Assembly: GCA_030693295.1 (NCBI GenBank)
Contig: JAUYAT010000007.1
Span: forward strand, 1 to 32,261
DNA from: a bacterium
GTDB lineage: Bacteria; Patescibacteriota; Patescibacteriia; Patescibacteriales; VMTK01
Direction: 5' to 3'
DNA: 32,261 bases
Part shown: in pieces, positions 10,864-25,776 of the stretch
How positions within the stretch are numbered: the first letter of the stretch is position 1
How the letters are laid out: each line of letters starts with the position of its first letter
Notes under the pieces: generated by a model
Told to the model about the DNA's origin: nothing
The model's input: only the letters and a program-made list of their open reading frames with translations
The model's database searches: none
Position numbers and translations under genes: made by a program

Positions 10864-10961
10864 AATTTTGAATTTCCAATTTTTAATTTTGAATGAATGT
10901 TTAATTTTGAATGTTTAAAAATTAAATCATTAAAAATTATTTCAAAATTCAAAATTCAAAA
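10863..10961. repeat. AT-rich 7-nt-period fold-back spacer, copy A (rplD-rplW)
   Basis: It reads in register as GAATTTT, GAATTTC, CAATTTT, TAATTTT, GAATGAA, TGTTTAA, TTTTGAA, TGTTTAA. The far side has TTCAAAA three times (10941-10961). The two sides are complementary, so the spacer can fold back. A related copy follows rplW. Confidence 0.8.
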
Positions 10962-10969
10962 TTATATAT

Positions 10970-11410
10970 ATGGGTTTATTAAGTAAAATAATAACCAAAA
11001 GCAAGAAAGAAGAAAAGAGGCAGATTAAGCAATCCGTTCAGGTTAGCGATGCCAAAAAAACAGGGACGAAAGAGTTGTACGAGGGCGATAAGGTAAAAAA
11101 GCAAGAAAAAAAAGAAAAAAAATACGGCAATGCTTATAAAGTTTTAGTTAAGCCGCTGGTAACCGAAAAGGGAAGCGTGATGAACGCGGAAAACAAGTAT
11201 ATTTTTGAAGTTGCCAAGAAAGCCAATAAAATTGAGATAGCCAAAGCGGTTATTGAAGTTTACGGCATTAAGCCGGTTAGCGTTAATATAATTAAAATGC
11301 AGGGCAAGAAAACGCGTTACGGCAAAATAGCCGGCAAAAGGAAGGATTGGAAGAAGGCGGTTGTAACCCTGCCGGAAGGAGAGAGTATTAAGGTTTACGA
11401 AGGCGTATAA
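10970..11410 (+). CDS. rplW: 50S ribosomal protein L23
   Basis: The uL23 core begins near residue 52 (YKVLVKPLVTEKGS) and continues NKYIFEVAKKANKIEIAKAV, YGIKPVSVNII and GKRKDWKKAVVTL. About 50 residues precede it, almost all lysine, glutamate and serine (KSKKEEKRQIKQ; KKQEKKEKKYG). Such an N-terminal tail is absent from E. coli L23. L23 sits at the tunnel exit and docks SRP and trigger factor, so the tail would lie near the nascent chain. Its ATG follows TTATATAT without an SD. It is flanked on both sides by copies of the same AT-rich spacer. Confidence 0.94.
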   Translation: MGLLSKIITKSKKEEKRQIKQSVQVSDAKKTGTKELYEGDKVKKQEKKEKKYGNAYKVLVKPLVTEKGSVMNAENKYIFEVAKKANKIEIAKAVIEVYGIKPVSVNIIKMQGKKTRYGKIAGKRKDWKKAVVTLPEGESIKVYEGV

Positions 11411-11413
11411 ATA

Positions 11414-11508
11414 GAATTTTGAATTTTGAATTTTGATTGAATGTTTAATTTTGAATGTTTAAAAGTTCATTCATTGAAAATTGTTTGAAAATTAGAAATT
11501 AGAAATTG
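11414..11508. repeat. AT-rich 7-nt-period fold-back spacer, copy B (rplW-rplB)
   Basis: GAATTTT three times, then GATTGAA, TGTTTAA, TTTTGAA, TGTTTAA, in the same order as copy A. The far side ends in GAAATTA-type units. Copies A and B bracket rplW. Confidence 0.8.
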
Positions 11509-11522
11509 AAAATTATTAATAT

Positions 11523-17842: not shown

Positions 17843-17916
17843 TGTCATTCCCGCGAAAGCGGGAATCCAGGGGTTAAGCGAGTAAAATCTGGATTCCCGC
17901 TTTCGCGGGAATGACA
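17843..17916. repeat. 74-nt palindromic repeat between rplR and rpsE
   Basis: Two 28-nt arms (17843-17870 and 17889-17916) are perfect inverted copies. Each contains its own hairpin TCCCGCGAAAGCGGGA or its complement. The central 18 bases are GGGTTAAGCGAGTAAAAT. The arm (TGTCATTCCCGC... AATCCAG) is of the kind found dispersed in many bacterial genomes, like a MITE. There is no T-run, so transcription should read through into rpsE. Confidence 0.93.
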
Positions 17917-23847: not shown

Positions 23848-24549
23848 ATGTTTCAAAAAACATTTCTCATCTTTTTTGGCCCTCCCGGTTCAGGCAAAGG
23901 TACGCAGGCCGATATGCTGGCCAAGAAATTAAATCTTCCCGTTGTTTCGCCGGGAGAATTATTAAGGCACGAGGAAGATTCAAATACGGCGATAGGCAGG
24001 AAAATAAAGCCGATTATAGATTCCGGCAAGCTGGTTCCCGACGAAATTATTGAAAAAATTATTCTCAAATGCTTTAAAAGATTTGACGCTCGGGCGGGAA
24101 TCGTTTTTGACGGCTACCCCAGAAAAAGGGCGCAGCTTGATTTTTTAATTAAAAAATTGGAAAAAATTGCCGGCAAGCCTGCCTGCAGGCAAGGCAGGCA
24201 AGATTATGTTCGCGCGATTTTAATTAATGTGAGCGACAAGGAAGTAAAGCGCCGGCTGGGCGGCAGAAGAGTTTGCGACTGCGGCGCCGCTTACCATTTA
24301 ATATACAATCCGCCGAAAAAGAGCGGTCTTTGCGATTTGTGCGGCAAGAAATTATATATCAGGTATGATGACAAGCCGAAATTGATTGCCGATAGATTAA
24401 AATTATATCATCAAAAAATAAAGCCCCTGCTTGATTATTTTGAGAAAAGTGATAAGTTGATTGAAATAGACGGGGAACAAAATATTAATCAAGTTCAAAA
24501 TAATATTATAAAAGAGTTAGCGGAAAGAGCGATGTATGATAATAATTAA
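23848..24549 (+). CDS. adk: Adenylate kinase
   Basis: 233 residues. FFGPPGSGKGTQADMLAKKL (P-loop, residues 10-19 core), SPGELLRHE, VFDGYPRKRAQLDFL and RYDDKPKLIADRLKLY match Adk. The LID holds a zinc site made by CDC and CDLC. Adk converts ATP plus AMP to two ADP. Between LEKIAG and YVRAILINV there are about nine extra residues (KPACRQGRQ), encoded by a short GC-rich palindrome at 24177-24199, in frame. The gene end overlaps map by 14 bases. The usual secY-adk-map order is kept apart from the inserted ABC cluster. Confidence 0.95.
   Translation: MFQKTFLIFFGPPGSGKGTQADMLAKKLNLPVVSPGELLRHEEDSNTAIGRKIKPIIDSGKLVPDEIIEKIILKCFKRFDARAGIVFDGYPRKRAQLDFLIKKLEKIAGKPACRQGRQDYVRAILINVSDKEVKRRLGGRRVCDCGAAYHLIYNPPKKSGLCDLCGKKLYIRYDDKPKLIADRLKLYHQKIKPLLDYFEKSDKLIEIDGEQNINQVQNNIIKELAERAMYDNN
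24177..24199. repeat. In-frame palindromic insert in adk
   Basis: GCCTGCCT and AGGCAGGC are perfect 8-bp arms around GCAGGCA. The insertion probably spans about 27 nt (nine codons), keeping the adk frame. Confidence 0.7.
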
Positions 24550-25350: not shown

Positions 25351-25776
25351 ATGAGATATTTAGGAATAGACTGGGGAGAAAAACGAATCGGTTTGGCGCT
25401 TGGCGATAGCGAGACAAAAATAGCTACGCCTTTTAAGGTTGTTGGCGGCATTAACGAGATAATAAAGACTATAAAAGACGATGAGATAGGCATGGTTGTT
25501 GTCGGCGTTCCGTTAAGGATGGATACCGGAAAATTGGAAATGTCCCGACGACCTCAAAGAGGTGCCGGGATCCCGACTCACACGTCGGGACAAGATGAGT
25601 TTTTAGAATTTTTAAATTCGCTGAAAAAGAAAATAAATATTCCGATTAAAACAATTGACGAGCGGCTGACTAGCAAGGCGGCCGATGCCCTAATCGGCGG
25701 CAAGAAAGTTAAGGCGCCGCGCGATGCGATCGCGGCGATGCTGATACTGCAGAATTATTTGGATAGAAATTTATAG
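25351..25776 (+). CDS. ruvX: RuvX/YqgF-type Holliday junction resolvase-like nuclease
   Basis: From ATG 25351 the protein reads MRYLGIDWGEKRIGLALGDS, the RNase H-fold opening with its catalytic Asp. It continues with VVVGVPLRMDT, IKTIDERLTSKAA and the C-terminal Asp in PRDAIAAMLILQNYL. RuvX takes part in pre-16S rRNA 5'-end processing in E. coli. After GKLEM come 17 residues (SRRPQRGAGIPTHTSGQ) not found in the family, encoded by a 52-nt palindromic element (25541-25592) with no stop. Without it the protein would be about 124 residues. It starts 11 bases after map and 10 before recO. Confidence 0.92.
   Translation: MRYLGIDWGEKRIGLALGDSETKIATPFKVVGGINEIIKTIKDDEIGMVVVGVPLRMDTGKLEMSRRPQRGAGIPTHTSGQDEFLEFLNSLKKKINIPIKTIDERLTSKAADALIGGKKVKAPRDAIAAMLILQNYLDRNL
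25541..25592. repeat. In-frame palindromic insertion element in ruvX
   Basis: Outer arms TGTCCCGACG (25541-25550) and CGTCGGGACA (25583-25592) are perfect. Inside are ACCTC-AAA-GAGGT (25551-25563) and the palindrome CGGGATCCCG (25566-25575), so the element can fold as a three-way junction. It adds exactly 17 codons to ruvX. Confidence 0.88.

Follow-up and report, generated by a model that had tools for sequence, protein, structure and literature searches.

A two-hairpin palindromic element inserted in frame in the ruvX gene of a Patescibacteria genome

Described palindromic repeats and the ruvX locus

In published descriptions, palindromes that code for protein are a speciality of Rickettsia, and the few cases outside it come from Wolbachia, Methanocaldococcus, and some REPs. 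The Rickettsia palindromic elements (RPEs) occupy solvent-exposed sites of conserved proteins, where they keep the reading frame (PMC2229807, PMC3767692), and have also been reported in the genes of tmRNA and RNase P RNA (PMC2229807). The CGTC-tagged REPs, which include RPE-4 and RPE-6, are recognized by a CGTC tag and a CCA tail (Di Nocera 2013, PMC3733652). In addition, the rRNA genes of CPR bacteria carry intervening sequences, group I and group II introns, and homing endonuclease genes (PMC11270868).

The window analysed here is a stretch of 32,261 nucleotides, contig C1 of the 1.06 Mb genome of a very small uncultured bacterium (62 contigs, G000), whose gene set is Patescibacteria-like, in line with the original prediction of a probable CPR genome. 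The palindrome had been assigned to an rRNA-processing nuclease, and this assignment was confirmed: the essential RNA-processing gene ruvX/yqgF (25351–25776, forward strand), coding for a putative pre-16S rRNA nuclease of 141 aa from the ATG at 25351 and carrying the in-frame insert, matched Pfam PF03652 over the full length of the protein (E 3e-27) and had PDB homologues 1vhx, 7ess, and 1nu0.

As had been proposed, the element behaves like an RPE, with in-frame copies in conserved proteins and copies in structural RNAs, but it is a distinct family, since its sequence, length, and fold differ. RPE-1 to RPE-7 and the Wolbachia palindromic elements lie in frame in conserved proteins, and so does the CPR family described below; RPEs and this family also share a reading frame kept open through the repeat, the lack of a transposase of their own, a lineage-specific presence, and locations inside tmRNA and RNase P RNA. 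In contrast, RPEs are described as 100–150 nt long, with ATGAC in RPE-4/6/7, whereas the ruvX element is 48 nt long and lacks ATGAC, and their hosts are Alphaproteobacteria, whereas those of the present family, with its TCCCGAC/GTCGGGA arms and two abutting hairpins, are mostly CPR. The unpaired CGTC tag, the AT pairs at the stem base, and the CCA tail of the CGTC-tagged REPs are all absent from the ruvX element. In GTAG REPs and REPINs, the hairpin has a GTAG foot and the repeats flank a RAYT gene; here there is no such foot (positions -3/-4 are variable), and the RAYT loci are not flanked by full copies. All these REPs resemble the CPR family in being short hairpins, often two-hairpin dimers and sometimes in frame (PMC3733652), although the CPR family is low in copy number, with 1–7 pattern matches per genome. 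The insertions in CPR rRNA genes also lie in structural RNA genes, but in rRNA, and neither palindromes nor tRNA appear in that text (PMC11270868). A search of the open-licence literature for palindromic in-frame repeats in CPR/Patescibacteria returned nothing on point, and from the literature searched we know of no earlier account of this family in CPR, which is weak evidence of novelty.

Extent, fold, and position of the insert in RuvX

The original prediction of a palindrome at 25541–25592, with perfect 10-bp outer arms and no stop codon, proved exact: the arms are TGTCCCGACG (25541–25550) and CGTCGGGACA (25583–25592), with the frame open throughout. In the alignment of related ruvX genes that had been proposed with it, a search of 60 genomes, drawn from the family and order of the window, gave matches in 54, and the 16-codon insert SRRPQRGAGIPTHTSG was found in none of the 49 homologues aligned (29, and then 20 more). 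BLASTP against the homologue of genome G035 (L004) showed a single gap of exactly 16 residues, and at the DNA level, the 48 nt stand between AAATG and CAAGATGAG in the window, whereas G035 reads AAATG^CAAAATGAA. From this gap and the aligned flanks, the insert corresponds to positions 25543–25590 of the forward strand, 48 nt or 16 codons, residues 65–80 of the protein. The in-frame insertion therefore stands, but the size of 51 nt and 17 codons first given to it was too large, because the outer TG..CA of the element as then drawn is target sequence, with the TG at 25541–25542 and the right side starting with CA at 25591.

Arms of such length and G+C content did not arise by chance in this window. 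In 20 first-order Markov resamplings, between one and eight perfect 10-bp arm pairs (loop ≤40 nt) were obtained, none of them with at least seven G/C per arm, and the only G+C-rich pairs of the real window were those of the ruvX palindrome and of the dimer at 17843–17916. The 48-nt unit alone folded with a z of -4.0 against shuffles, and the element with its flanks, with a z of -2.6 as RNA and -3.0 as DNA. The three-way junction put forward initially was recovered as the minimum-energy fold of the DNA, but the RNA fold and the covariation within the family favour two hairpins side by side. Hairpin 1 (25543–25570, forward strand) has the arms TCCCGAC..CCGGGA around a nested stem ACCTC-AAA-GAGGT; hairpin 2 (25571–25590, same strand), TCCCGAC-TCACAC-GTCGGGA, is predicted by the RNA fold too, and an exact 24-nt match of that half is present in genome G005. 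Between arms 1 and 2 of the family copies, the pairs were C-G in 57, T-A in 20, and G-C in 2, with few mismatches, counts that are to be read with arms 3 and 4 fixed by the search pattern and with related copies not independent. This covariation supports two hairpins, rather than a three-way junction, as the conserved fold, and some 36-nt copies fold via their outer arms instead.

The original prediction also placed the element in a loop following the VPLRMD segment, and the modelling that had been suggested agrees with this. In an AlphaFold2 model built on 29 sequences (mean pLDDT 81.5), residues 58–77, which lie between a strand (48–53) and a helix (79–94), had no secondary structure and a pLDDT below 50, so the inserted peptide is predicted to sit in a disordered loop. 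Gaps in the alignment with 1vhx fall in the same RuvX region, only loosely. Unrelated palindromes were found in frame in this same loop in G024 (L003, GTTCCCGCTGAGCGGGAT) and in G032 (L006, TCTGGCTATGCCAGATCTGGCGAAGCCAGA), and a further one, CCTCCTTCACTAAAGTTTCGGCGG, is in frame in a different RuvX loop of a genome of the same family (G001, L013). On the sequences compared, the loop is a hot spot for insertions. In the ruvX genes of several relatives (L005, L010, L015, L016, and L260), it contains AT-rich tandem heptamers of the ATTACAA type.

Other repeats were present in the window and its genome. A different palindrome, GCCTGCCTGCAGGCAAGGCAGGC (24177–24199, forward strand), lies in frame in adk, where it adds about seven residues (PACRQGR) absent from 18 Adk relatives; it belongs to another family, and a second hairpin of the same type occurs elsewhere in the genome. 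The intergenic element at 17843–17916, TGTCATTCCCGCGAAAGCGGGAATCCAG, is an inverted dimer of the TGTCATTCCCGC..GCGGGAATCCAG palindrome, with perfect 28-bp arms, located between two ribosomal protein genes; it resembles CGTC-1/dRS3 REPs, as judged from their description (PMC3733652), and fits the features of CGTC-tagged REPs better than the ruvX element does. Similar TCATTCCCGA..TCGGGAATCCAG hairpins recur in the genome, as does a 16-nt palindrome type, TCCCGAGNNCTCGGGA (L231, L234, L237, L239, L241, L242), some copies of which stand in long frames reading NPExSG and which is possibly another protein-coding mini-palindrome. Finally, an AT-rich repeat of 94–108 nt (10864–10971 and 11407–11514) lies on either side of the ORF at 10970–11410, its copies being both direct (85%) and inverted (74%).

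A repeat family in CPR genomes and its target sites

The ruvX element shares its build, [TCCCGAC-loop1-GTCGGGA][TCCCGAC-loop2-GTCGGGA], with a whole family whose members consist of two directly adjoining hairpins. The loops vary, with GTAAA, GCTTCG, GTTTCA, and a nested hairpin among those combined in numerous ways, and the length is 33–71 nt, mostly 36–60 nt. BLAST against 241 relatives detected the same build in G005, G012, G122, G127, G138, G175, and G212, among others. GTDB genomes were scanned for the right half of the element with the pattern CGGGATCCCGACN{3,12}GTCGGGAC, which gave at least 118 stretches, mostly in Patescibacteria (CPR), the matches listed including Nomura-, Kerfeld-, Kuenen-, Falkow-, Magasanik-, Gottesman-, Kaiser-, and Uhrbacteria and others, as well as Bacteroidetes, Margulisiibacteriota, Kryptoniota, and Omnitrophota outside the CPR; a few GC-rich actinobacterial matches look like chance. 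Within the class of the window, the pattern was present in 30 of 381 genomes, and the reversed-pattern control in none. Related TCCCGA..TCGGGA hairpins numbered 20 in the genome containing the window versus one in the control. The original prediction, which looked to other copies for its support, is borne out in this respect: they are sparse in this genome and numerous elsewhere in the CPR, where they occupy core genes without breaking the frame, and no unrelated loop of the same length was found in the RuvX relatives.

In-frame copies were counted as distinct copies in open frames of at least 140 codons with at least 20 codons on either side. The hosts identified are ArgRS (L036 and L151, with L176 homologous to the latter), SecA (L098 and L156, with L128 homologous to the former), MurB, peptide deformylase, a class II tRNA synthetase, RpoD, a penicillin-binding protein, RpoA, MnmA, a Mur ligase, MetRS, a CarB-like MGS domain, RNase R, an SMC-like ATPase, LepA, and also acetolactate synthase, in which the copy gave one clean 13-residue gap against the PDB homologue 13bb. 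Since the ArgRS and SecA insertions are common to pairs of related genomes, copies can be inherited. A length divisible by three was found in 34 of the 39 distinct copies in long open frames, compared with 26 of 63 elsewhere (Fisher p 4e-6), an excess that follows in part from the way of counting, since a copy that broke the frame would not score as inside an open frame, and that is thus a consistency check and not a proof of selection. In addition, one copy was located inside an RNase P RNA (L070, 1773–1825) and another, from a Ca. Uhrbacteria genome, inside the tmRNA (L149, 1049–1085).

The flanks of 97 distinct copies were compared, 20 of them in tRNA-like sequence and 77 in others. All 20 tRNA-like copies lie at AG^CT, in the context TAG^CTC or its complement. 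The other copies have a G before or a C after the element in 73 of 77 cases, and where only one side conforms (51 of the 77), A or T precedes the G in 45. The element thus appears, from these flanks, to insert after WG without target duplication, none having been seen at the copies compared, and the ruvX site TG^CA, whose empty counterpart AAATG^CAAAATG is preserved in L004, fits this WG^ preference. The copies located in tRNA sequence are partial, usually a 5'-half fragment beside an intact tRNA. That they might lie within otherwise intact tRNA genes was rejected: upon removal of the element, ARAGORN recognized a tRNA at only one of 116 distinct sites (L048), and in that tRNA the acceptor 5' strand is unpaired, so these copies are remnants or partial duplicates. 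A GIY-YIG ORF was found between the intact tRNA and the displaced partial copy in L048, L063, L094, L096, and L145 (also L035 and L208), and the partial copies carry the palindrome at precisely TAG^CTC, an arrangement that looks like a tRNA-targeting homing cassette.

Movement, persistence, and alternative explanations

The best explanation, to which we give a probability of about 80%, is that a non-autonomous mobile palindrome was inserted in a RuvX loop and has been maintained without a visible function for RuvX. One copy of the two-hairpin family, whose TCCCGAC/GTCGGGA arms are constant and whose loops can be exchanged, and which is spread over Patescibacteria and some further phyla, would have been inserted after TG, with no target-site duplication, in the loop that comes after the VPLRMD strand, and seems to serve no purpose for the host protein. 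Its persistence in ruvX would be due to a net length divisible by three, arms free of stops in all six frames, and a loop tolerating extra disordered residues. Gene-breaking copies would have been removed by selection, which would leave those that are in frame in protein loops, at the periphery of structural RNAs, in tRNA copies that have decayed, or in intergenic regions. The single full double-hairpin copy in the genome of the window weighs against this explanation as far as recent movement is concerned.

Movement would most likely depend on a transposase of the single-strand type (HUH/Y1, RAYT-like) that acts in trans on the hairpins in their folded form; within the overall explanation, this is our best guess for the mobilising enzyme, at roughly even odds. 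A strand-specific target without duplication is the outcome of IS200/IS605-like Y1 enzymes, whose insertions show a short 5' motif, and here the net insertion equals the element length and prefers WG^. Y1_Tnp was matched in 24 of the 30 element-bearing genomes versus 179 of 351 others (p 0.002, phylogeny not corrected for). Counting against this, the remaining six element-bearing genomes gave no Y1 match, two of them being 100% complete. At the loci examined, no full element copies flanked Y1 transposase genes, only a single 16-nt TCCCGACGCTTCGGGA, about 600 nt from the weak Y1 match in the genome of the window (L227), and one 17-nt hairpin in locus L229. CGTC repeats likewise lack flanking transposases (PMC3733652). 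A phage carrier is not supported: the only match among phage records was a weak one of 32 nt, in an unannotated phage scaffold and lacking the second hairpin and pairing arms, and viral contigs gave none. Plasmid records contained no match to the element either.

The copies in tRNA-like sequence suggest a different origin, in which small GIY-YIG homing nucleases would cut TAG^CTC in tRNA genes and the break would be mended with the palindrome, the other WG^CW sites being off target. The exact placement of those 20 copies and the 85–134 aa GIY-YIG ORFs that adjoin several of them, between the intact and the displaced tRNA (L035, L048, L063, L094, L096, L145), speak for it, but tRNA context accounts for only about one-fifth of the copies, GIY-YIG ORFs are rare elsewhere (L186, L193), and the G on one side only of 51 of the 77 non-tRNA sites points to a strand-specific rather than a palindromic cut. 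GIY-YIG cassettes may, moreover, just be frequent neighbours of tRNA genes in CPR, and we regard this origin as quite improbable.

An insert removed at the RNA level, either as an intron or as an intervening sequence excised by RNase III, would leave a RuvX protein without the 16 residues, and it would agree with the presence of copies in the genes of RNase P RNA and tmRNA and with the stable RNA hairpins that the element forms. However, copies in reading frames are open and have a length divisible by three, which removal would not demand, no Rfam intron match overlapped a copy in the loci tested, the element is only 33–71 nt long, and excision without ligation would cut the mRNA, all of which makes this reading very improbable. 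Still less credible is a selected functional loop of RuvX, palindromic by coincidence: the frame is intact and the RuvX match full-length, but similar sequences turn up in genes unrelated to ruvX, where the frame and orientation differ, and the 49 homologues lack the insert, two having different palindromes in the same loop, so that the copies outside ruvX largely refute it. As for the mobile palindrome itself, its extension to a phylum-scale Patescibacteria family of protein-coding palindromes, moved by a site-specific enzyme with a hot spot at tRNA G10^C11, tied to GIY-YIG/tRNA cassettes, and supplying core proteins with extra peptides and tmRNA and RNase P RNA with extra stems, is doubtful when taken as a whole.

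With a separate family of palindromes in the reduced genomes of CPR bacteria, the same outcome is seen in another lineage of small bacteria. The family accounts for odd inserts of the types VPTxVGIPTxVG and SRRxxGIPTxxSG, which disturb CPR annotation, alignments, and structure models, and its sharp WG^ preference, together with the tRNA hot spot, makes the mobilising enzyme a testable question.
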